A stretch of DNA of 64,000 nt from a bacterium. GTDB taxonomy: Bacteria; Patescibacteriota; Saccharimonadia; Saccharimonadales; UBA4665. Where the stretch lies: positions 1-64,000 of the forward strand of contig JAJXTN010000002.1 in assembly GCA_021783725.1 (NCBI GenBank). Direction: 5' to 3'. Shown piece by piece: positions 15,715-26,752 of the stretch. Within the stretch, counting starts at the first letter, position 1; the number at the start of each line of letters is the position of its first letter. The position numbers and the translations under genes were made by a program. Under the pieces are notes generated by a model. It saw only the letters and a list, made by a program, of their open reading frames with translations. It made no database searches and was not told the origin of the DNA.

Positions 15715-16260
15715 ATGACTAACAAACGCTATGATACAACCAAACAATGGTATGCCATCCACACTTACAGTGGATATGAAGAAAAAGTTGCCGAAAGTAT
15801 TCGACAGCGCGCCGATTCATTAGATATGGGCGACAAAATTTTTGCCGTATTAGTGCCTAAAGAAAAAATGATTGAAATCAAGAATGGAAAGCGCCGCGTA
15901 GTTGAGAAGCGTATTTTCCAGGGCTATGTACTAGTTCAAATGAAGCTCAGCGAAGATGCGTGGTATATCGTTCGTAACACGCCATCTGTTACTGGTTTCG
16001 TCGGTAGTGGCACCGATCCAACCCCGATTGAGCAAGATGAAATCGAAAAAATCCAGAAGCGCATGGGCCTCGAGCAACCTAAGCACAAAATTGATTTCAA
16101 TATTGGTGAAGTGGTCAATATCATTGATGGTCCTTTCAAAGGCTTCGACGGTAGCATCAACGAAATCGACGCCGCTAAAGGTAAGCTTAAAGTTTTGGTC
16201 AACATGTTTGGTCGCGAAACTCCGGTTGAGCTCGATGGTCTTCAAGTTAAGCGCGTTTAG
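15715..16260 (+). CDS. nusG: transcription termination/antitermination factor NusG
   Basis: 181 residues. NGN domain begins QWYAIHTYSGYEEKVAESI; C-terminal KOW domain contains GEVVNIIDGPFKGFDGSI. Preceded by a good Shine-Dalgarno region (AAAGGAACGAGG). Binds RNA polymerase and couples transcription to translation. Part of secE-nusG-rplK-rplA. Confidence 0.97.
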   Translation: MTNKRYDTTKQWYAIHTYSGYEEKVAESIRQRADSLDMGDKIFAVLVPKEKMIEIKNGKRRVVEKRIFQGYVLVQMKLSEDAWYIVRNTPSVTGFVGSGTDPTPIEQDEIEKIQKRMGLEQPKHKIDFNIGEVVNIIDGPFKGFDGSINEIDAAKGKLKVLVNMFGRETPVELDGLQVKRV

Positions 16261-16265
16261 TTAAC

Positions 16266-16490
16266 GTGAATAATAGTGAAAACAACTTAAATCAAGAGAT
16301 TAATGAACAACGCAGCTACCGACGCTTTTCGCCTACCAGTGAAGCTTTAACGTATCTCGGGGCCAGCGCAACGTCATTTTTTATTTCTGGTGTCGAACTC
16401 GCAGAAGGTGGGTACAGTGCTTCAACGATCGCATTTATCGCAGGTATTAGCGTAGGTGCGCTAGGTGCCCTTCAATTAAAGCAACTCTAA
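16266..16490 (+). CDS. small membrane protein between nusG and rplK
   Basis: 74 residues from a GTG start 5 bp after nusG. A polar N-terminus (about 1-27) is followed by two short hydrophobic segments (ALTYLGASATSFFISGVEL and ASTIAFIAGISVGALGAL). No known family. Tight spacing suggests co-transcription with nusG. Not part of the usual gene order in bacteria. Confidence 0.6.
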   Translation: MNNSENNLNQEINEQRSYRRFSPTSEALTYLGASATSFFISGVELAEGGYSASTIAFIAGISVGALGALQLKQL

Positions 16491-16516
16491 TACATAGCAT
16501 TCTGCGTCATCTGCAG

Positions 16517-16545
16517 TAGACAAAGCGCTCCGATTCTGTTACAAT
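16517..16545 (+). promoter_or_regulatory. rplK promoter
   Basis: TAGACA (16517-16522), 17-nt spacer, TACAAT (16540-16545), with rplK starting at 16604. A leader of about 50 nt results. Confidence 0.65.
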
Positions 16546-16603
16546 CAATCTGTTACGCACATGGTCAAAAGCTTCGTGACCTAATGCAAGAAAGAGATTA
16601 AAT

Positions 16604-17032
16604 ATGGCAAAGACAGTTAAAGCTAATTTAAAGATGAAATTAAAAGGCGGCCAGGCCAACGCGTCGCCACCAGTCGGTAGTACTCTTGGTCAGTACGGTG
16701 TCAACATGATGGATTTTATTAATCCTTTTAATGAAGCCACCAAGGACATGATGGGCCAAAATGTTACCGTTCATATCGCTGTCTACGAAGACAAAACTAT
16801 GGACTTCCGAGTAGTCGGCATCCCAACTGATGATCGTATCCGAGCTGAGCTCGGTATTCAAAAAGGCTCAGGCAAACCTAATAGCGAAAAGCTGGATAAG
16901 AAGCTTACTCAAGCTCAACTTACCAAAATCGCTGAAGAAAAAGCCAAAGACATGAACGCTGACGATATTGAGTCTATCAAGCGCATGGTAGCCGGCACGG
17001 CTCGCAGTATGGGTGTAGAAATCGCAGGCTAA
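16604..17032 (+). CDS. rplK: 50S ribosomal protein L11
   Basis: 142 residues; KLKGGQANASPPVGSTLGQYGVNM-type N-terminus and KRMVAGTARSMGVEI at the C-terminus are diagnostic. Binds the GTPase-associated centre of 23S rRNA. Followed by two small non-ribosomal genes before rplA, which is unusual. Confidence 0.97.
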   Translation: MAKTVKANLKMKLKGGQANASPPVGSTLGQYGVNMMDFINPFNEATKDMMGQNVTVHIAVYEDKTMDFRVVGIPTDDRIRAELGIQKGSGKPNSEKLDKKLTQAQLTKIAEEKAKDMNADDIESIKRMVAGTARSMGVEIAG

Positions 17033-17034
17033 CA

Positions 17035-17268
17035 ATGGATTCAGATTCTGGCAAAGAACGACTTTTTGATACAGCCATGGCCGCAAAGAATGCATTACTG
17101 ACCACTGGGGCTATGCTTACCGCTATAGCTGTTGAGCTTAAAACTTCAGTCATGCCAGCTATCGACCTCGATGTTTCAGCTGGTGCAATTTACCGAAGAG
17201 CTCTAGACAGACGATTAGCGGCCAAAAGTGCCTTACCGAGCCTAAACAACCCAGACATAGAAGAATAA
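17035..17268 (+). CDS. small hypothetical protein between rplK and rplA (1)
   Basis: 77 residues, starting 2 bp after the rplK stop, so translationally coupled. Contains a weakly hydrophobic centre (NALLTTGAMLTAIAVELKTSVMP-like) and an acidic end. No family recognised. Its position inside a ribosomal operon suggests co-expression with L11 and L1. Confidence 0.55.
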   Translation: MDSDSGKERLFDTAMAAKNALLTTGAMLTAIAVELKTSVMPAIDLDVSAGAIYRRALDRRLAAKSALPSLNNPDIEE

Positions 17269-17271
17269 TTT

Positions 17272-17308
17272 GTGGGAGGCCTTGTAAGCCGCTAACACCA
17301 CGAAAGGA
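17272..17308 (+). promoter_or_regulatory. L1-type mRNA leader motif, copy 1
   Basis: 37 bp with outer stem GTGG/CCAC, an internal GGC/GCC helix and a purine-rich asymmetric loop, ending in the Shine-Dalgarno AAAGGA before the ORF at 17314. It resembles the rplK-rplA intergenic element at which ribosomal protein L1 represses its own mRNA. A near-identical copy precedes rplA. Confidence 0.6.
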
Positions 17309-17313
17309 TTACA

Positions 17314-17505
17314 ATGACACAAGAAACTGGAATACAAGCATCCTGGGATGCGCTTTACCCTCCGATCAAACAGTTTTTGATCGAGGAAGCTATAGCTAGC
17401 CACCTAACTACACTTTCGCCTGAATTGGTTGACGCAATCGGTCAGTTATCTTTAACCGAATTACTAGCGACCGTTGATAACGTTAGGGAATTAAACATCA
17501 ATTAA
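17314..17505 (+). CDS. small hypothetical protein between rplK and rplA (2)
   Basis: 63 residues, acidic, helical (YPPIKQFLIEEAIASHL; LSLTELLATVDNVREL). Preceded by its own L1-type leader motif and Shine-Dalgarno sequence, so it is probably translated and regulated like L1. No family recognised. Confidence 0.6.
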   Translation: MTQETGIQASWDALYPPIKQFLIEEAIASHLTTLSPELVDAIGQLSLTELLATVDNVRELNIN

Positions 17506-17508
17506 TTT

Positions 17509-17545
17509 GTGGGAGGCCTGAACCGCCGATAACACCACGAAAGGA
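17509..17545 (+). promoter_or_regulatory. L1-type mRNA leader motif, copy 2 (before rplA)
   Basis: Same 37-bp length as copy 1, sharing GTGGGAGGCCT at the start and AACACCACGAAAGGA at the end, with changes only in the middle. ATG of rplA follows after 6 nt. Its place directly before rplA fits L1 autoregulation. Confidence 0.65.
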
Positions 17546-17551
17546 TCAATT

Positions 17552-18502
17552 ATGGCAACTGCCAAGAAAACCACTACCAAAAAGACTAAAACCACTGAGG
17601 TTGCAGAAACCCCAACCGAAATTATCAAAACTACTGAAGTGGTAGCTGAGCAAACTACTAAGGAAGTTGAAACACCCATTCTTGCCAAAGCTGGCAAGCG
17701 CAGTGCTAAAGCATTGAAAGAAGTAGAAGCCAAAGTCGCCAAAGAAGAACGCAAAGAATCTCAAGCCGAGGAAGCTGAAAAACCCCACGTACCAGTTGTT
17801 GCTACGCGAACGCGCCTAGAGCGTCGAGCTAAAGGTTTCCGCAAAAGCGCCGAGCATATCGAAGCCAACAAGCTATACAGCCTAGATGAAGCCCTGAAGC
17901 TAGCCAAAGTCACTAGCCACGTCAAATTCGACGCCACTGTTGAATTACATGTTAATTTGAATGTTGATCCGAAGTATGCCGATCAAAACATTCGTGACAA
18001 CCTCCAGCTACCGGCTGGTACAGGCAAGAATGTTCGAGTCGCTGTTCTGACCGAAGATGCCGCTGGTGCCATCAAAGCTGGCGCCGATTTAGCCGGTACC
18101 GACGAACTGTTAGCCAAACTAGAGTCCGGAACCATCGATTTCGATATATTGATCTCTACTCCGGCTCTAATGGCCAAATTGGGTAAATATGCTCGCATCC
18201 TTGGCCCCCGTGGTCTTATGCCTAACCCTAAGAGTGGCACTGTAACTGTCGATGTTAATCGAGCGATAGCTGAATCTAAAGCGGGTAAAGTAGAATACCG
18301 CGTCGATTCGACCGGAATTGTTCACTTAGGCGTTGGAAAAGTAAGTTTTACCCAAAAGCAGTTACTCGATAACACCTTAGCTGTTTTAGCTAGCATCAAA
18401 TCTAACAAGCCAGGTAGCGTTAAAAGCAATTACATCAAAGCCGTTCATTTGAGCACATCGATGGGTCCATCAGTTGCCGTTGAACTAAGTAGCGTTAACT
18501 AG
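17552..18502 (+). CDS. rplA: 50S ribosomal protein L1 with long N-terminal extension
   Basis: 316 residues; the L1 core begins near residue 85 (RAKGFRKSAEHIEANKLYSLDEALKLAK-like region) and includes GPRGLMPNPKSGTVT. The first 80 residues are a low-complexity Lys/Glu/Thr/Ala stretch absent from typical L1 (about 230 aa). L1 forms the mobile stalk at the E site and represses its own operon; two candidate binding motifs lie upstream. Confidence 0.96.
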   Translation: MATAKKTTTKKTKTTEVAETPTEIIKTTEVVAEQTTKEVETPILAKAGKRSAKALKEVEAKVAKEERKESQAEEAEKPHVPVVATRTRLERRAKGFRKSAEHIEANKLYSLDEALKLAKVTSHVKFDATVELHVNLNVDPKYADQNIRDNLQLPAGTGKNVRVAVLTEDAAGAIKAGADLAGTDELLAKLESGTIDFDILISTPALMAKLGKYARILGPRGLMPNPKSGTVTVDVNRAIAESKAGKVEYRVDSTGIVHLGVGKVSFTQKQLLDNTLAVLASIKSNKPGSVKSNYIKAVHLSTSMGPSVAVELSSVN

Positions 18503-18503
18503 T

Positions 18504-20207
18504 TTATTTAACTTTCATTGTCCGCATCAAGGCATTAGTAGTGCGGGTGAAACCACGAATACCAGCCTGATAAGCGATGTACCGATCGCGCCATTCCGGC
18601 TCATATTTGACTTTGAATTTATATAGACCACTAAAAGAGTAGAAGCGATCGCCATTAGCATAAGCAAAACTTAAAACTCCGTCTATCAGCGTTTTGCGAT
18701 CTTTGTCTTGTTCGTCTAGACCGACAAGCGGGCATAAACCTAAGTTCAGCTTCTGGTAATTCTTGGTTTTCAGCTCATCGATAAAACACATTAACAAGTA
18801 ATCGTTGATGTTACCCAAGCTACTTCTGGTGTGCCGTAACAAATCATAAGTAGCTTCTATGGTATCGAACTCAGCCGGAATCTGATTGATAAAAGCTTGA
18901 ATTGTGCCCGCTGCATCACGCACCACCATAATCGGACACATCTGCATGTAATCTTTAGTGAAATACCCCATAGCAAAGCCACGTTCATCACGATCGCCAT
19001 CATTCAACCACTCTCGAGATATCACCTCAAGTCGCTCTAGTACAGCATTATGATGCGGAGGTAGTAACATTTCTGAGGTAAAATCTTGTTTTGTGAATTT
19101 GTTGCGAATATGTCGGAAATACTTGTTGTTGGCAACATTATTTTGAAAATACTCAATATCTACTACCGCTTCTTGACCAATTTTTTGCAAGCTATAGTTG
19201 TGTTTTTCGAACAATTTACGATTAGTGTTCTGGATATGTATAAAAGCTGGCAACCAGTCATTACCAAAACATAGACTTTCAAACTCCGATAACAAATGAT
19301 CATAACTGGCTTTACTACCGGCTGGGTCGCCCAAGCATAGCGCTACACCCCGATTGACGTGAAACGCCAGCCCGGCACGATTATGATCGTCAAAAAAGTA
19401 AGCTTTGTCGTGAGGCCATAGTTTGAAAAAATCTTCGCTAGGACTAGGATGGGCGTTCAACAGATCACGCATTTTCTGACGATTCGCAGACTGATCAATT
19501 AATCTTAGTCGCAATGGCTGGAACATCGCCAAAATTACATAACCTACAGCCAATACACTAACGACGCTCAGCGAATTGACGAATATCTCCGCTCGCTTGG
19601 TATAAGTCTGCAACGGTTTGGCGGTCGTCAAATCAAATTGATCGATAGTGTAGTGAATAGCTGACATTGTGCTAATTTCTTGATGAAAATCGTGATTATC
19701 TAACAGTGAAAACCCAGTCACACCATAGACGAAAGCGACGATTAATACCAAAGCCGAAAACCGCGCCGCGCTTCGGAATCCTTGAATATCACTATGAACT
19801 ACGAATTCTTTCTGATTAATAAACAGTAGTCCGAGAACTAAGGCCGGCAATATGCAAACGCGTATTAGCTGTAATAAAAATAATTCATCGAAACTAGTAC
19901 GCAAACCTAGGTTGGCAATTCCCAGCCCCATATATACAGAGTAGGCGATGACTGTTACCAACCAGGCCGTCCGTTTGTGGCTACGTAGTTGAGTACTCAA
20001 ATACAACAAGCTCAAACCGATAAACAATGGCAAGTAGATGACTACCGCATCAGCCCGTAGATTGTGCCGGTCAGCCGTTTGGAGGATCAACGATGAAGCT
20101 AAAATGAATATGGCGTGAGCGGCAACTACTAAGCCGACAAATTGTACACCAAACCGGCGATTAACTCGCAATCGACCTTTAAGACTATCGGAATTACGTT
20201 GTCTCAT
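18504..20207 (-). CDS. MprF-like lysyltransferase domain protein (DUF2156)
   Basis: 567 residues. N-terminal half has about seven membrane helices (25-240); the C-terminal half (about 260-560) has the GNAT-like fold of phosphatidylglycerol lysyltransferases (DKAYFFDDHNRAGLAFHVNRG, LCLGDPAG, LNLGLCPLVGL). Members transfer an amino acid from tRNA to a membrane lipid and change surface charge. tRNA-dependent activity is not proven by the sequence. Convergent with rplA (1-bp gap) and divergent from dcd. An LPG-synthase-type TM protein lies at the end of this window. Confidence 0.8.
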   Translation of the reverse strand: MRQRNSDSLKGRLRVNRRFGVQFVGLVVAAHAIFILASSLILQTADRHNLRADAVVIYLPLFIGLSLLYLSTQLRSHKRTAWLVTVIAYSVYMGLGIANLGLRTSFDELFLLQLIRVCILPALVLGLLFINQKEFVVHSDIQGFRSAARFSALVLIVAFVYGVTGFSLLDNHDFHQEISTMSAIHYTIDQFDLTTAKPLQTYTKRAEIFVNSLSVVSVLAVGYVILAMFQPLRLRLIDQSANRQKMRDLLNAHPSPSEDFFKLWPHDKAYFFDDHNRAGLAFHVNRGVALCLGDPAGSKASYDHLLSEFESLCFGNDWLPAFIHIQNTNRKLFEKHNYSLQKIGQEAVVDIEYFQNNVANNKYFRHIRNKFTKQDFTSEMLLPPHHNAVLERLEVISREWLNDGDRDERGFAMGYFTKDYMQMCPIMVVRDAAGTIQAFINQIPAEFDTIEATYDLLRHTRSSLGNINDYLLMCFIDELKTKNYQKLNLGLCPLVGLDEQDKDRKTLIDGVLSFAYANGDRFYSFSGLYKFKVKYEPEWRDRYIAYQAGIRGFTRTTNALMRTMKVK

Positions 20208-20357
20208 GTATATAGTGTTTATATTGTACTAAACAATCGACCTAATATTATTAACTTAAGCGTTATCAACATCTATTTGCGTAAAAATCACACTATTATT
20301 GTACTTGCCTTTATTTAGGGCAATCACATAGAATACTAGGTAAGAAAAGGGGTAACA

Positions 20358-21071
20358 ATGTCGGTATACAGTAATATCCAAATTCGTCAGGCCGTCGAAG
20401 AAGGTCATATATTATGCCACCCGTTCAACCCTAAACATGTTAGCCACGCCAGCCTCGACATTACTCTCGGCTATTACTTCTATCGAATTGAAAAAATGAA
20501 TGAACGGACCATTTATAATCCGTTTGATAAGGAAGACGTTGAGCGCTACTTCGACGGACCTCACAAAGCCATGCCACATGGCGAATGGTGTAAACTGAAT
20601 GGCTTTAAACCAGTCAATAACATTCCGCTCGATCATCCAGTTATCAGTCTTAAGCCAGGCGAACGTATTCTGGCTCATACCCACGAGTTTTTCGGCATTT
20701 TACCACCAGGAGCCTGCGAAGTAAGGTCACGATCGAGTTGGGGTCGAAATGGTATCGCTGTCTGTTTTGACGCCGGTTGGATTGACCCTGGCTATATTAA
20801 TCGCTTGACCCTCGAAATATTCAACCTGAATGACCGAGAAACTGTACTGTTACCGGTTGGTGAACGAACCGCCCAGATTATATTCCACGAAACTGGCGAA
20901 GTCGAAGGTAATTATGGTGCCGGCCGGGACTCCCAGTTCAGTGGCAAATACCAGCAAGGCACTGATCTAGATACCATAATCAAAACATGGTCGCCAGATA
21001 TGATGCTACCTAAAGCCTACAAAGACCAAAGGGCCATGCCCCAAAATATCGAAGGTCTATCTTATGATTAA
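20358..21071 (+). CDS. dcd: dCTP deaminase (dUTPase fold)
   Basis: 237 residues, longer than E. coli Dcd (193). Motifs: VSHASLDITLGYYFY, VRSRSSWGRNGI, AGWIDPGYINRLTLEIFN and GAGRDSQFSGKYQ. Converts dCTP to dUTP (or dUMP if bifunctional), feeding thymidylate synthesis. Overlaps the Tmk-ThyX fusion gene by 8 bp, which links the two steps of one pathway. Promoter-like TTGCCT-18-TAGAAT lies just upstream. Confidence 0.9.
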   Translation: MSVYSNIQIRQAVEEGHILCHPFNPKHVSHASLDITLGYYFYRIEKMNERTIYNPFDKEDVERYFDGPHKAMPHGEWCKLNGFKPVNNIPLDHPVISLKPGERILAHTHEFFGILPPGACEVRSRSSWGRNGIAVCFDAGWIDPGYINRLTLEIFNLNDRETVLLPVGERTAQIIFHETGEVEGNYGAGRDSQFSGKYQQGTDLDTIIKTWSPDMMLPKAYKDQRAMPQNIEGLSYD

Positions 21072-23418
21072 AGGTAAATATATTGTATTAGAAGGGCCAG
21101 AGGGTGTCGGTAAGACCACTCAACTGCTGGAGTTAGCCCGTCGTCTACAAGCCGCCGGTCTACCTGTCAGGACACTTCGAGAACCAGATAGCCAAAGTGA
21201 CATAACCGCCCGAGCTATTCGCCATCTAACCCAAGATCCACGCTACCCAATGAATACTCGTACTGAAGTGCTACTCTACAATGCCGCCCGTTCCCAGAGC
21301 CTGCAAGTCATCAAGCACAGCGTCGAGCACGGTGTTATCTGTCTAGTTGACCGAAATTATCTTACAACGCTAGCCATTCAATACTATGGACGAGGCGATG
21401 TCCCCGACTACAACACTATCAACAGCATCATCAATTTTGCGGTAGACGGGGTCGAACCAGATCTATGTATCGTATTGGACGCGCCGGCCAATATGCTTAA
21501 AGCGAGGGTCAGCAACCGCTATAGTGGCGAGCGGTTTGATGATTTAGACGAGAATTTTCTGGAACGGGTTCGAGCTGGATACCTTTGGGAAGCCAAACAG
21601 CGCAATTTACCGGTTGTTTTTGCCACCGACAGCGCCGATAAGGTGAGTGACACTATATGGAAATTAGTCGCCGGCGAACTCGCCATCAGGGATACAGCTT
21701 CGCCAGTTAAAGTTGCCGCTCCTTCTTCTATAAAAGAAATTATCGATAATAAGCCGATTGCCCCACCGATGGTAGGTGTCAATGCTGTCAAAACTGAGCA
21801 ACCAACCACTCCAGACGAAACGTCAGACATCGACGAAGATTATGTCAATAAAACTGATGGCCGAACCGAAATAACTAAAGCCGGGGAAAACTATCTAGCT
21901 CAAGCTGTCACTAACGTTAACGGCAACGTCTATGCTTTCACCGATAAACTCAGCCCAGTTACGATAGCCGCCGCTATGGCTAGATTGAGTCGACGCGGTG
22001 ACGACATGCGGATCACTATATTGGATGAGTTTGCCGGTAAAGCTGGCAAAGACGTCAATCTACTACAACGGATTATCACTGCTTACGGCGACGATTCGGT
22101 TCAACAACTCGGTGGGTTACATTTCGTCATCGAAAACGCTTCCAATATTTTGACTAAAAAACTGGAATGGGGACGCCTGGCGTCGTATCTCGAACAATCG
22201 ACTAGATACATCTACTTCGACCAGAAAGACAAGACCGGCAAATATCGCTACCACACTCCAGAACACTTCAAACCGAGCGTTAAAAAACAATACGAACAAT
22301 CAATCGATATGATATTCGATTTGTATTCGACGATGGTGCATCATTTAACCGATTATGTGCGGGCTAAATCGACAACCCCCGAAGCCGAACGTGATATAGC
22401 TTGGCAGGGTGCGACACGAGCCCAAGCTTGTGACGCCATTAGAGCAGTTTTACCGACAGCCACAACTTCTACGGTTGGTATATTCGCATCTGGACAAGCC
22501 GTCGAAAGCCTGATCATGCATTTACTAAGCGATGAGCTCCCTGAAGCGCAAGCTACTGGCAAACAGTTACTAGCAGAAGCCCGGAAAGTCATCCCGATGT
22601 TCTTGGAGCGAGCTGACAAGCCAGAACGTGGTGGCGCAACGATTGCTTACCGAGCCAATACCGCCAAAGATGTTGCCAAATTAGCTAAAGACTATCTGCC
22701 GGCTAGCCACGCCAACTCCGATACCACCCCAGTCACGTTAGTTGATTATTGGCCCAAGAACGAAATGTTATTAGTGCCTGATATGTTATATGAGCACAGC
22801 AATCTATCGCTTGAAGATTTACAAGCCGAAGTCGGGGGCTGGCCATATAACCAAAAATCCGAAATATTCAAGGCTTATATCGGCGAACGCTTGAATCGAC
22901 GACACAGACCTGGCCGGGCATTAGAAAAAGCTCATTATAGCTGGGACCTCGTCTGCGACTATGGTATTTTCCGCGATTTACAACGTCATCGGATGGTTGA
23001 CGACCTAAATTGGCAACAACTAACACCCCGCTACGGCTATGAAATACCCCCACTTGTTGAAGAAGCCGGTTTAGCCGAGCAATTTGAAGCATGTTTTGAT
23101 ATCAGTCTTAAACTTCATAGTTTACTCGTCCAATCAGGCTACGCCCTAGAAGCCCAGTACGCCACGCTCTTGGGTCACCGCATGCGCTGGAAAGTCACTT
23201 ATAATGCCCGAGAAGCTTTCCACTTACACGAATTACGCACCAGCCCTCAAGGCCACCCTGGTTATCGTAAACTGGTGCTCGAGATGCACGACAAGTTAGC
23301 TGAAGTCCACCCGATGCTGGCTGAAGCCATGAAATTCGTCAACAAAGCCGAAGACGAAGAACTAACCCGCCTAGCGGCCGAACGTTATACGCAGTTTAAA
23401 CTGTCACAATTAAACTAA
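21064..23418 (+). CDS. fused dTMP kinase and duplicated ThyX-like protein
   Basis: 784 residues. Residues 1-207 are thymidylate kinase: P-loop EGPEGVGKTT (10-19), DR motif in CLVDRNYL, lid region RYSGERFDD. After a flexible linker (208-275) come two ThyX-like halves. Half 1 has EQSTRYIYFD near 376; half 2 has RHRMVDDLNWQQLTPRY at 641-657, a variant of the ThyX RHR...S...SxRY signature with Asp/Asn/Gln where Ser is usual. If active, it would make dTMP from dUMP with FAD and then dTDP. The variant motif leaves catalysis uncertain. It overlaps dcd by 8 bp. Confidence 0.88.
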   Translation: MIKGKYIVLEGPEGVGKTTQLLELARRLQAAGLPVRTLREPDSQSDITARAIRHLTQDPRYPMNTRTEVLLYNAARSQSLQVIKHSVEHGVICLVDRNYLTTLAIQYYGRGDVPDYNTINSIINFAVDGVEPDLCIVLDAPANMLKARVSNRYSGERFDDLDENFLERVRAGYLWEAKQRNLPVVFATDSADKVSDTIWKLVAGELAIRDTASPVKVAAPSSIKEIIDNKPIAPPMVGVNAVKTEQPTTPDETSDIDEDYVNKTDGRTEITKAGENYLAQAVTNVNGNVYAFTDKLSPVTIAAAMARLSRRGDDMRITILDEFAGKAGKDVNLLQRIITAYGDDSVQQLGGLHFVIENASNILTKKLEWGRLASYLEQSTRYIYFDQKDKTGKYRYHTPEHFKPSVKKQYEQSIDMIFDLYSTMVHHLTDYVRAKSTTPEAERDIAWQGATRAQACDAIRAVLPTATTSTVGIFASGQAVESLIMHLLSDELPEAQATGKQLLAEARKVIPMFLERADKPERGGATIAYRANTAKDVAKLAKDYLPASHANSDTTPVTLVDYWPKNEMLLVPDMLYEHSNLSLEDLQAEVGGWPYNQKSEIFKAYIGERLNRRHRPGRALEKAHYSWDLVCDYGIFRDLQRHRMVDDLNWQQLTPRYGYEIPPLVEEAGLAEQFEACFDISLKLHSLLVQSGYALEAQYATLLGHRMRWKVTYNAREAFHLHELRTSPQGHPGYRKLVLEMHDKLAEVHPMLAEAMKFVNKAEDEELTRLAAERYTQFKLSQLN

Positions 23419-24089
23419 TAAGCTTGGTGAAGTTCTGGATCGTGTGACATGTGCAACACCAAAGCGTCGTTCAACGTGCCGCTGAAATCGGTGCTCTTGT
23501 AGCCACTGGCCGATATTTGAACACTGCCGAGCGTTACAATAGGTAATTCATCACCGCGTGACGGTTTGATATGTTCCAAGATATCTTCGTAATCTAAATC
23601 AATAGTCTCTTCGCTACCGCTTATAAGGGCTCCGAATCGGGCAATATGGCCTATCAAACGATAGCCAGCATCTTTCCCAATAGCACCACCAATCGGTAAA
23701 CCGACAAAATCACTAGCGTCTTTATCATTGGTGCGGATAAATTCGGCGACGCCGAGGGCCCGCTCCAAACTTAATAAGTTGGCGACCTTACCATGAGCTA
23801 ATTCCATCTCTTGAGCAGCGTTTGAAGCTAAATCACCGGCATAGTGGGCTACTGAAGCATATTTAGCTTCAGTACGAGCGACATCCTTGCAAAGGCTATC
23901 ATGTATTCGGCTAATTCGCTTTCGGCGGGGTAGACTTCGGAACTGTTGCTCGGCAAGTGAATCCCCTCCAAAAGTGTTTTGATGTAATGATTCGAGCGCC
24001 GATAAACGGTGCTCAATATCAACATAAGGTACGTGCAATAAGCCCACGTCCGCCTTAATTTGTCGACTAATTACTTGATTCTCACTCAT
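23415..24089 (-). CDS. hypothetical protein
   Basis: 224 residues, soluble. N-terminal half helical and charged (RFRSLPRRKRISRIHD-like region), C-terminal half with DLDYEDILEHIKPSRGDELPIVTLGSVQI. No family recognised. Convergent with the Tmk-ThyX gene (4-bp overlap). Confidence 0.6.
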   Translation of the reverse strand: MSENQVISRQIKADVGLLHVPYVDIEHRLSALESLHQNTFGGDSLAEQQFRSLPRRKRISRIHDSLCKDVARTEAKYASVAHYAGDLASNAAQEMELAHGKVANLLSLERALGVAEFIRTNDKDASDFVGLPIGGAIGKDAGYRLIGHIARFGALISGSEETIDLDYEDILEHIKPSRGDELPIVTLGSVQISASGYKSTDFSGTLNDALVLHMSHDPELHQAY

Positions 24090-24174
24090 GTTTATAAACC
24101 GGTCGTGATTATACTCCTTTTTATCTTATCCTGCAATATTGGAACTATGTCAAGTCATTCCGTATGCATACGTA

Positions 24175-24202
24175 TTGACAACGATTTTAGGGAGCGTATA
24201 AA
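24175..24202 (+). promoter_or_regulatory. promoter of leader and four-gene operon
   Basis: TTGACA (24175-24180), 16-nt spacer, TATAAA (24197-24202). One of the best -35/-10 pairs in the window; transcription would start near 24209. Confidence 0.75.
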
Positions 24203-24242
24203 TAGTAGACATGAGTTTCAACAATAGCTATAAGCACGTGAT

Positions 24243-24353
24243 GATTATTCTCGGCCGTCAAGGGCAGTGCTTCAGCATGGTTGAAGCCTCGCGATAATAA
24301 TCGCCAGCACTGTCCAGTAAACCAAGAAGGCTTCAACCAGAAGCCTTCTTTTA
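24243..24353 (+). promoter_or_regulatory. riboswitch-like transcription attenuator
   Basis: Between promoter and first gene. Long-range helix GGGCAGTGCT (24262-24271) with AGCACTGTCC (24306-24315); GATTATT (24243-24249) pairs with AATAATC (24296-24302), giving a pseudoknot; inner hairpin GCTTCA/TGAAGC. Terminator AAGAAGGCTTC-AACCA-GAAGCCTTCTT-TT (24324-24352). TGGTTGAAGCC (24278-24288) is a perfect complement of GGCTTCAACCA (24329-24339), so pairing there would break both the inner hairpin and the terminator. This is the layout of a ligand- or factor-controlled switch. I do not recognise a known class. Confidence 0.7.
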
Positions 24354-24381
24354 ATTTATTAGCAGTATAGGATCAAATAAA

Positions 24382-24645
24382 ATGGGACATAGAAAAAGTT
24401 TTAGTTCAGCTCGACGCCGGGCTTTATCCCAACAGTTAGAGTTAATTGGCGGACGAGAAATGTGGGGTGAATTAGCTCACCCCGAGTGCACGTCTGATCA
24501 GGCAAACGTTGCCAATGAATTATACGGAGTTGTTTATCGAGATGGAAGTGTCCGCCAACTATCACGCCGAGCAGAATTAATAATTCACAATACGGCACAA
24601 CGTATTGTTGAAGCACAAATCGAAACAAAAGGATATGTATCATGA
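24382..24645 (+). CDS. hypothetical protein, first gene of attenuated operon
   Basis: 87 residues, basic N-terminus (HRKSFSSARRRALS), helical C-terminus. No known domain. Start 29 nt after the terminator hairpin. Its stop overlaps the next start by 4 bp (ATGA). Confidence 0.65.
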   Translation: MGHRKSFSSARRRALSQQLELIGGREMWGELAHPECTSDQANVANELYGVVYRDGSVRQLSRRAELIIHNTAQRIVEAQIETKGYVS

Positions 24646-24980
24646 CTAGCACACTCCTAACTGAATCTATCCGCGAACCAGAATTCACAGTTCCTCAACA
24701 GCAGCGTCAACTAGGTTCAACCGCACTTAAGCATGAAGCCCAACAACGGTCTAGACGTTGTTTCGAGGAAACACGAATTGGCTGGACCATATTCTTAAAC
24801 AACAAGGCTGACGATATCGTTAACTTTAATATGGCAAAAACTGATTTTGAAGCAGCTTCAGAAGTTAATCTAATTCGTGAGGCCGTCTATCTCTATTTCG
24901 AAGATGAAATTCCTGAATCGCACCAATCTGTACTATCAAATGAATTTATTCAATTTGAAGACAATCAGGCAGTAGCATGA
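24642..24980 (+). CDS. hypothetical protein, second gene of attenuated operon
   Basis: 112 residues, soluble; LREAVYLYFEDEIPESHQ-like acidic C-terminus. No family recognised. Overlaps both neighbours by 4 bp, so translation is coupled. Confidence 0.65.
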   Translation: MTSTLLTESIREPEFTVPQQQRQLGSTALKHEAQQRSRRCFEETRIGWTIFLNNKADDIVNFNMAKTDFEAASEVNLIREAVYLYFEDEIPESHQSVLSNEFIQFEDNQAVA

Positions 24981-25324
24981 GTATTCCATTTCCACCTCGA
25001 TCAGGCCACAAACCTACAAGCGAATACTCTGGTGGGCGTGAGCGCTTTTCATTAAAAATAGACCGGCAGGCTCACATCCTAAGTCCAGATGCTAGCTATA
25101 CAGAAGCATTTGAATATTATGCTGATGACCGAAACCAGACTTGGGTGGCGGCATTACTACTATGTGGTGAATACGACGAACCAGACCAACAAAGCCAGAT
25201 TGTCCACCAGGCCGCTGTCGAGCATCAACACGAACAAGCCTTAAGGATGAACGAAACTCGTAGTTGTTTTCAGATGATTACAACTTTTTTAATGAATAAC
25301 GCAGTGGGGGCGGAAAATGACTAA
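24977..25324 (+). CDS. hypothetical protein, third gene of attenuated operon
   Basis: 115 residues, soluble, acidic (AFEYYADDRNQTWVAALLLCGEYDEP). Overlaps the previous gene by 4 bp and the next by 8 bp. No family recognised. Confidence 0.65.
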   Translation: MSIPFPPRSGHKPTSEYSGGRERFSLKIDRQAHILSPDASYTEAFEYYADDRNQTWVAALLLCGEYDEPDQQSQIVHQAAVEHQHEQALRMNETRSCFQMITTFLMNNAVGAEND

Positions 25325-25619
25325 ATCCGTGGTCGAGGCTAGTTCATTATTGGCCTATTATTGGGACCGGAATCGAAAGACTTTTATTGAAATAGTTGCA
25401 GACAATGATCCCATGGATCTACTGAAGGGCTTCGTTAAACACATACCGCTTGATAGTCCTAAAGTTGGGGAATACGCCGAAGCTTTACAGATTTTGCAAG
25501 CACAACTACCTGAAGGCGAACAGCGCACAGCTTTGGAAACTGTCTTAAAGCCTTATATTGAAAATATCGGCGGGGTAGCTATTGAAGCGGTAACAGTCGA
25601 GCAACAGGTTGATTTTTAA
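25317..25619 (+). CDS. hypothetical protein, fourth gene of attenuated operon
   Basis: 100 residues, helical, acidic (LLAYYWDRNRKTFIEIVADND). No family recognised. Last gene of the operon; the L10 promoter overlaps its 3' end (TTGATT at 25609). Confidence 0.65.
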   Translation: MTKSVVEASSLLAYYWDRNRKTFIEIVADNDPMDLLKGFVKHIPLDSPKVGEYAEALQILQAQLPEGEQRTALETVLKPYIENIGGVAIEAVTVEQQVDF

Positions 25620-25637
25620 GATTGTTTGCAGTATAAT
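25609..25637 (+). promoter_or_regulatory. rplJ-rplL promoter
   Basis: TTGATT (25609-25614), 17-nt spacer, TATAAT (25632-25637). The -35 lies inside the end of the preceding gene. Confidence 0.65.
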
Positions 25638-25644
25638 TACTCGT

Positions 25645-25778
25645 AAGTTGCCAGAGACAGCGACGACCTACGTAGCTTTTAGCCAAGTAGGTTTGATAAG
25701 GTCGCCGAGGTACAAACAATCTATCTTGATAGTTTGAACGTCTTTGGATAAACACCATAGGCGTTTTTGTTTGGCAAC
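25645..25778 (+). promoter_or_regulatory. ribosomal L10 leader with attenuator
   Basis: The region CAGAGACAGCGACGACCT...AGGTCGCCGAGGT (25652-25711) has the order and motifs of the bacterial L10 leader that binds L10(L12)4. It is followed by hairpin AACGTCTTTGG/CCATAGGCGTT and TTTG (25737-25768), a terminator-like attenuator. GTTGCC (25647-25652) can pair with GGCAAC (25773-25778) around the whole element. This fits autoregulation of rplJ-rplL. Confidence 0.75.
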
Positions 25779-25831
25779 CAAGGGCGGAATAGGTCGATAA
25801 CCGCACTATCAATCATTAATGGAGATAATCC

Positions 25832-26356
25832 ATGGCACTAACCAAAGTTCAGAAAGACGAAGTTGTCGCAGAAGTCAGTCAATTATTGGCCGACTCTAAA
25901 TTAACCGTCGTCGCTAAGTATGAAGGCACCACGGTTAAAGCCCTCCAAGGCTTACGTCGCGATGCAAAAGCTAAAGGCACTAAAGTCAAAGTGGTCAAAA
26001 ACCGCTTAGTTATTAAGGCCATCCAAGCAGTAACGTCGCTCAAAGATGTTGAAACCAGCGCTTTAGAAGGTATGCTATTGTATGCTTTCAATGCCGAAGA
26101 TGAAGTTGCACCAGCTAAAAGCTTGAACGATTTCTCAAAGCTAAATCCTAGCCTTGAGTTCGTTGGAGCGATTACAGCCGACGGTAAATTCATCGACGCC
26201 GCAAGTGTTAAAGCTTTGGCTGTATTGCCAAGCAAACAACAATTGATCGCTGGTATCATCAACACTCTAAATTCACCTGTAATGGGTGTTATGGGTGGTT
26301 TGAACGGCAACCTACACGGTTTATTACTAGCTCTAGAAGCCAAAGCCGCCAATTAA
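25832..26356 (+). CDS. rplJ: 50S ribosomal protein L10
   Basis: 174 residues; KVQKDEVVAEVSQLL N-terminus, VKVVKNRLVIKAI and the C-terminal helix that anchors L7/L12 dimers. Autoregulates through the leader upstream. Followed 18 bp later by rplL. Confidence 0.95.
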   Translation: MALTKVQKDEVVAEVSQLLADSKLTVVAKYEGTTVKALQGLRRDAKAKGTKVKVVKNRLVIKAIQAVTSLKDVETSALEGMLLYAFNAEDEVAPAKSLNDFSKLNPSLEFVGAITADGKFIDAASVKALAVLPSKQQLIAGIINTLNSPVMGVMGGLNGNLHGLLLALEAKAAN

Positions 26357-26374
26357 TTTTAAGAAAGGGATAAA

Positions 26375-26752
26375 ATGGCAGATTTAAAGAAAATCGCAGA
26401 ACAGTTAGTTGGACTTACAGTCCTAGAAGTTAACGAATTAGGAACTATCCTAAAAGACGAATATGGCATTGAACCAGCCGCTGCTGCTGTAGCCGTAGCT
26501 ACTGCCCCAGCTGGCGATGCCGCTCCAGCCGCAGAAGAGAAGAGCGAATACGATGTCATCCTTAAGGATGCTGGTGCTCAAAAAGTTGCCGTTATTAAGG
26601 CTGTCAAAGACATCACTGGACTTGGTCTTGGTGAAGCTAAGGCAATCGTTGATGGCGCTCCAAAGCCAGTTCTAGAAAAAGCTAAGAAAGACGACGCTGA
26701 ATCAGCTAAGAAAAAGCTTGAAGACGCCGGTGCTACAGTCGAATTAGGTTAA
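26375..26752 (+). CDS. rplL: 50S ribosomal protein L7/L12
   Basis: 125 residues; N-terminal dimerisation helix, Ala/Pro-rich hinge (about 36-52), C-terminal domain with [18 protein letters not shown]. Recruits translation factors. Strong Shine-Dalgarno AAGAAAGGGA. Confidence 0.97.

Follow-up and report, generated by a model that had tools for sequence, protein, structure and literature searches.

An open reading frame in a Saccharibacteria-like genome encodes a single 784-residue chain in which a dTMP kinase (Tmk) is followed by two ThyX domains, and the residues of the ThyX active site are divided between these two halves in a complementary manner. We consider it likely that this protein is a bifunctional enzyme whose ThyX portion is a split-site, fused-heterodimer synthase, carrying dUMP through dTMP to dTDP. 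Judged by its residues, the protein encoded in the window (the whole stretch of 64,000 nucleotides that was analysed) is very probably active. The relevant features are as follows, with active-site residues assigned by mapping onto Thermotoga maritima (Tm) ThyX.

20358–21071, plus strand: dcd, dCTP deaminase, 237 aa (TIGR02274, 93.8 bits versus a cut-off of 92.8); the final 8 bp are shared with the fused gene
21064–23418, plus strand: fused gene, dTMP kinase, linker, ThyX N-half and ThyX C-half; ATG start, one 784-codon ORF
21064–21678, plus strand: dTMP kinase domain, residues 1–205 (TIGR00041, PF02223), with motifs GPEGVGKTT (P-loop), REPD, VDRNY and ERFD
21679–21846, plus strand: linker, residues 206–261, a predicted flexible tether (low pLDDT in the full-length model)
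21904–22632, plus strand: ThyX N-half, residues 281–523 (VIA-align to Mycobacterium tuberculosis ThyX 2af6)
22096–22098, plus strand: S345, Tm position 55; Ser in 58 of 58 Saccharibacteria N-halves
22192–22209, plus strand: dUMP loop E377-Q-S379-T-R381-Y382, Tm E86, S88, R90 and Y91; conserved in 58 of 58 N-halves
22441–22443, plus strand: R460, Tm R147
22720–23349, plus strand: ThyX C-half, residues 553–762 (VIA-align to T. maritima ThyX 1o26)
22984–22992, plus strand: R641-H642-R643, Tm R78-H79-R80, the FAD clamp; the N-half has W369-G370-R371 here
23203–23211, plus strand: N714-A-R716, Tm N163 and R165
23236–23238, plus strand: R725, Tm R174, which activates dUMP; L487 in the N-half

The first-pass annotation had described a Tmk fused to a doubled ThyX in one 784-residue chain, with an 8-bp overlap between this gene and dcd. 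The reading frame and its domain matches confirm the fusion, and the coordinates of the two genes (20358–21071 and 21064–23418) confirm the overlap. Thymidylate_kin (PF02223) matches residues 9–198 with 85.8 bits in Pfam, and Thy1 matches the 784-residue chain in two stretches totalling 115.4 bits against a cut-off of 24.8, the best being residues 558–750. A profile search of the genome locates the two Thy1 matches at 21958–22596 and 22735–23313, and the protein therefore counts as a doubled ThyX, defined by two Thy1 domains per chain. In NCBIfam, the kinase part passes TIGR00041 (100 bits versus a cut-off of 83.25) with its P-loop and DR motif aligned, and the ThyX part falls short of the equivalog TIGR02170 (49.6 bits versus a cut-off of 87.9). 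On the latter score, the ThyX part is filed as a variant, without the status of a canonical single-domain ThyX. Residues 262–784 are covered to 90–93% by matches with doubled ThyX proteins from three other phyla. The same architecture recurs at about 60 Saccharibacteria loci with 49–77% identity, which rules out a chance reading frame and an assembly artefact alike.

Each active site of the ThyX tetramer is built from three subunits (PMC6514825; also PMC3498832). In the M. tuberculosis enzyme, subunit A provides RHR 95–97 and Arg199, subunit B provides Ser71 and Arg190 and subunit C provides Ser105, Arg107 and the lid residue Tyr108 (PMC6514825); the Ser equivalent to Tm position 55 contacts the FAD phosphate. 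The partition between the two halves of the window protein matches these published subunit roles (PMC6514825, PMC3498832). In T. maritima numbering, the N-half keeps S345 (55), R371 (80), E377 (86), S379 (88), R381 (90), Y382 (91) and R460 (147), with W369/G370 replacing R78/H79 and L487 replacing R174. The C-half keeps E621 (58), R641-H642-R643 (78–80), N714 (163), R716 (165) and R725 (174), with R618 at the position of Ser/Thr55, T654 at that of Ser88 and Q698 at that of R147. To judge from the mapped residues, the C-half retains role A, and the N-half retains role C together with the Ser of role B.

The textbook motif RHRx7S is consequently found in neither domain by itself: RHR is present in the C-half only and the intact Ser loop in the N-half only. 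It had been noted that the RHR motif is altered and lacks its usual Ser. This holds for the second half, where RHRMVDDLNWQQLTPRY is present, but the Ser is kept by the protein, as S379 of LASYLEQSTRYIYF in the first half, which itself lacks RHR. The missing Ser of the C-half thus appears as one side of a reciprocal loss between the halves. Nor have the FAD and dUMP residues disappeared from both halves, a finding that had been named as one that would count against an enzyme. Tm positions 55, 78, 79, 80, 86, 88, 90, 91, 147, 163, 165 and 174 are each found in at least one half, and the sole exception among the active-site positions checked is H53, replaced in both (D343 and P616); T. maritima ThyX carrying H53D was crystallised with FAD and dUMP (4kas).

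The same division is seen across 58 N-halves and 55 C-halves from Saccharibacteria. R78, H79 and R174 are confined to the C-half and S55 and R147 to the N-half; all N-halves have Ser at position 88 and Glu at position 86, and the C-halves mostly have neither. The dUMP loop is likewise conserved in all doubled ThyX proteins read from outside the phylum. When positions were taken without hand-picking, as those with conservation of 90% or more among 20 single-domain ThyX proteins, the resulting 18 comprised six kept in the N-half only, three in the C-half only and three in both; the rest are partly kept, and no position has disappeared completely from the two halves together. In the window's clade, the N-half carries Gln at position 165 where the C-half carries Arg, which indicates that the third-subunit role is split, without a clean assignment to one half. 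The Ser and Arg of this role are both on the N-half in a series of CPR lineages (L086–L094) and in the Bacillus plasmid forms.

Predicted structures agree with this domain assignment. An AlphaFold2 model of residues 262–784 has a pLDDT of 83.5 and a pTM of 0.78. Compared by VIA-align with solved chains, the predicted C-half matches T. maritima ThyX 1o26 with a Z score of 14.7 (190 residues, 2.6 Å) and the predicted N-half matches M. tuberculosis ThyX 2af6 with a Z score of 12.9 over 209 residues, at 14–21% identity of the halves to solved ThyX chains. The structure comparison that had been suggested thus finds the ThyX fold in each half, for predicted single-chain models set against solved chains. 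In the full-length model, pLDDT drops below 50 at residues 209–218 and 231–256, and these low values suggest that the kinase is probably tethered to the ThyX part rather than docked on it; the pTM of this model, 0.50, says nothing on domain arrangement.

We infer catalysis, assembly from two chains and a benefit of the tethered kinase along the following lines. The ThyX part would perform flavin-dependent conversion of dUMP to dTMP and the kinase part would convert dTMP to dTDP. The C-half would contribute the RHR clamp on FAD and the dUMP-activating Arg, and the N-half the dUMP loop and the Ser that contacts the FAD phosphate. In the simplest arrangement, two chains would then form a pseudo-tetramer whose positions A and D are taken by the C-halves. 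Of the four sites of an ordinary ThyX tetramer, such an assembly would have two as complete, composite sites, and the other two would be vacant. The flexible linker would hold the kinase beside the site that makes its substrate, and the gain may be local hand-off of dTMP or a fixed stoichiometry.

The genome content fits ThyX as the cell's route to thymidylate. The assembly is Saccharibacteria-like, 843 kb in size and 97.8% complete, and profile searches of it find the fused gene as the sole match to Thy1 and the sole match to PF02223. These searches of the 97.8% complete assembly revealed no ThyA, dihydrofolate reductase (DHFR) or thymidine kinase, and the normal thyA or thyX elsewhere in the genome that the first-pass annotation had named as a possible refutation did not turn up either. 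Contig 11 encodes serine hydroxymethyltransferase (SHMT) and a separate dUTPase. ThyX releases tetrahydrofolate rather than dihydrofolate, and the presence of SHMT without a detected ThyA or DHFR therefore fits thymidylate from ThyX, which returns tetrahydrofolate.

In 69 of 80 related loci, dcd was detected in the vicinity of the fused gene, beside ThyX remnants (see below) as well, and for the kinase type of the window it mostly touches or overlaps the fused gene. The proposal that dcd, thyX and tmk link three steps toward dTDP stands as far as the overlap of dcd and the joining of ThyX and Tmk in one chain are concerned, but the dUTPase step intervenes: Dcd makes dUTP and the dUTPase is encoded on another contig, so the steps are not consecutive unless Dcd is bifunctional. 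Upstream of dcd, an MprF-like protein with a lysyl-phosphatidylglycerol synthase C-terminal domain is encoded on the minus strand (18504–20207); 19 of 80 loci were found to have it close to the fused gene. A 224-aa ORF on the minus strand (23415–24089) converges on the end of the fused gene with a 4-bp overlap; it has no Pfam or NCBIfam match and was seen at none of the 80 related loci. By eye, dcd and the fused gene lie between nusG-rplK-rplA-like and rplJ-rplL-like genes (15715–26752), a region that is usually a tight cluster of ribosomal protein genes.

Among 148 sampled genomes of the order, 75 have the fused gene, counted as a dTMP kinase match together with Thy1 in a frame that is 700 aa or longer. 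Strong matches to ThyX occur in 99 of these genomes and to ThyA in 43, with both in only four (Fisher p 8e-22, a value overstated because the genomes are related). In four genomes, ThyA coexists with a fused gene that is still intact, and one of these fused proteins (L118) forms the longest intact branch among those from Saccharibacteria. Weak partial ThyA matches (profile positions about 100–236) were seen in frames of about 211–252 aa in four genomes (G298, G330, G376 and G236). Two genomes of the same order (L071 and L073) encode a single-domain ThyX of the canonical kind, which contains RHRIASYNEESGRY; among solved chains, Streptomyces 4p5a is the nearest, and the gene was possibly acquired from actinobacteria.

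The fused genes carry two types of kinase, one TIGR00041-like (the set to which the window belongs) and the other closest to NF005923. The two types are 21–28% identical to each other, and the ThyX parts to which they are attached are 66–75% identical. Repeated swapping of kinases, which the ThyX tree suggests, was set aside because a single clade for the kinase type of the window is not rejected by an AU test (p 0.36). Our claim is accordingly limited to two kinase types on one ThyX trunk. A second, standalone PF02223 kinase is present in 16 of the 75 genomes with the fused gene, often nearby (for example at 601–1230 of L108 and 3148–3753 of L109).

In 14 homologues (L099–L104, L112, L113, L115, L116 and L127–L130), the kinase is followed by a ThyX remnant. 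Ten of these were aligned: the dUMP loop is deleted and RHR, N163 and R174 are all gone, and most still show PRNEFDLLADSLY, TPRYGYEVP and LLGHRxRW. The remaining four, among them L127, which is truncated by a contig boundary, were inspected by eye. Thirteen of the 14 genomes have a second synthase: ThyA in 11 and a separate intact doubled ThyX in two, where it stands alone beside the Tmk–remnant fusion (L104, 503–2440; L114, 430–2175). The one remnant case in which no second synthase was found is L128, in a genome 92% complete. ThyX motifs are thus often lost where a backup enzyme exists, and the remnants appear to be worn-down, non-catalytic ThyX domains in relatives that mostly have another synthase. 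The remnants span both kinase types and at least three families, which points to more than one decay, and the ThyX part has likely decayed more than once; the C-half tree groups the ten aligned remnants together with a support of 85, on very long branches, and gives no sign of separate decays. In the single close pair among the remnants, L112 and L113, the C-half remnant has a pN of 0.22 against a pS of 0.77, a rough bound only, since synonymous sites are saturated, and these values suggest that the remnant is constrained rather than junk.

These remnants bear directly on the two readings offered by the first-pass annotation, a pseudosymmetric enzyme and an inactive scaffold. For the window protein, the ThyX fold of both halves and their complementary active-site residues support the pseudosymmetric enzyme. 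A doubled ThyX that only oligomerises or regulates the kinase, with thymidylate drawn from another source, would be compatible with the lack of essential residues in either half by itself; it clearly describes the 14 homologues in related genomes, and the constraint on the L112/L113 remnant fits it. As an account of the window protein we regard it as very unlikely. Nearly all catalytic positions survive in one half or the other, the dUMP loop and RHR that are lost in the remnants are invariant in the intact proteins, and searches of the window genome turned up neither ThyA nor another ThyX or a thymidine kinase, in contrast to the second synthase of 13 of the 14 remnant genomes. On these residues and on the genome content, we reject a dead ThyX in the window. 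The structural match to PolB, a UMP/dUMP methylase (4p5a, 4p5b), raises the alternative that the ThyX part (hydroxy)methylates another uridine nucleotide and is not the source of dTMP in the cell. To this we give even less credence, in view of the fusion to a dTMP kinase, the adjacent dcd, the near-exclusivity with ThyA and the failure to find another synthase in the genome.

Closer to our preferred explanation, and a variant of it, is an active fusion without hand-off, which in a reduced genome would only ensure that two essential enzymes are expressed together and in fixed stoichiometry. The predicted disorder of the linker, the linkage of dcd through operon overlap rather than fusion and the standalone second kinase retained by 16 of 75 related genomes are in its favor, but kinases as divergent as the two types described above sit on similar ThyX parts, and the kinase is still fused to dead ThyX remnants. 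Two kinase types on similar ThyX parts and a kinase kept on remnants suggest selection for the link itself, without proving hand-off. We rate the variant without hand-off at slightly below an even chance.

Returning to the split-site bifunctional enzyme, the partition extends well beyond Saccharibacteria. It is also found in doubled ThyX proteins of other CPR lineages, of Euzebya, Miltoncostaea and Parabacteroides, of Bacillus and Paenibacillus plasmids, of a Tunturiibacter phage and of an IMG/VR contig, with 21–39% identity for those outside CPR. By residue alignment, it is common to every intact doubled ThyX examined (CPR, Actinomycetota, Bacteroidota, Bacillus plasmids and phages). In a tree, the N-halves separate from the C-halves as two clades with supports of 100 and 99, which indicates an early origin of the doubled protein, either by duplication or from two different ThyX proteins. 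Two neighborhoods are of interest in themselves. On a Euzebya pacifica plasmid, dcd is directly upstream of the doubled ThyX (L121, 195–3018), an arrangement that thus occurs outside CPR too. In a Giovannonibacteria locus (L061, minus strand), a chain matching PF00383 and PF02223 (dCMP deaminase–dTMP kinase) is encoded upstream of a standalone doubled ThyX, joining the steps before and after ThyX. As a history, we tentatively suggest, with a little less than half of our confidence, that the split-site, obligate synthase is ancient, that a dUMP-to-dTDP assembly with two recruited kinases formed around it in Saccharibacteria and that in more than one lineage, once another synthase had taken over, catalysis decayed and the ThyX body persisted as a module with a structural or regulatory role for the kinase.

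The protein would be a natural and testable example of an active site split across duplicated domains in an essential enzyme of DNA precursor synthesis; ThyX is not present in humans. The partition explains how doubled ThyX proteins, which occur in many phyla and are annotated as plain thymidylate synthase, can function although they lack the textbook motif. Intact enzymes, genomes that have both enzymes and conserved remnants devoid of motifs form a series that offers a rare view of an enzyme becoming a non-catalytic partner and raises the question of what the kinase needs the ThyX body for. To our knowledge, no enzyme activity is known for any doubled ThyX; the ThyX of Chlamydia may be a doubled ThyX. 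Our search of the literature, mostly outside subscription journals, found no paper on a Tmk–ThyX fusion, the site partition, the remnants or doubled ThyX in CPR. Doubled ThyX was known before; the kinase fusion, the partition and the remnants appear unreported in the literature searched.

Compared with ThyX of T. maritima (TM0449) and M. tuberculosis (PF02511), the window protein has the same fold in each half, the same active-site residues when the halves are pooled and the same expected reaction, and its genome likewise yielded no ThyA or DHFR. It differs in having two domains with complementary losses in one chain, a fused kinase and, in our proposal, two composite sites rather than four. 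Duplicated ThyX proteins have been described in Chloroflexi and 'a few other species' and called not characterised (Valas and Bourne 2009, PMC3224940). The doubled domain in one chain is the same there, and by that description the two are probably members of one family; the passage in PMC3224940 that deals with them contains neither the site partition nor a kinase fusion. Relative to dTMP kinase (Tmk, TIGR00041), the window protein has a full-length domain with P-loop, DR and LID motifs that scores above the cut-off, but here it is the N-terminal domain of a larger chain, and other Saccharibacteria have an NF005923-like Tmk in this place. The ThyX–MsrB fusion of Thaumarchaeota is predicted not to make dTMP (PMC6211008). 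Both fusions join a ThyX-like domain to another enzyme and lack Ser88 in a ThyX domain, but the window protein has this Ser in its other half.
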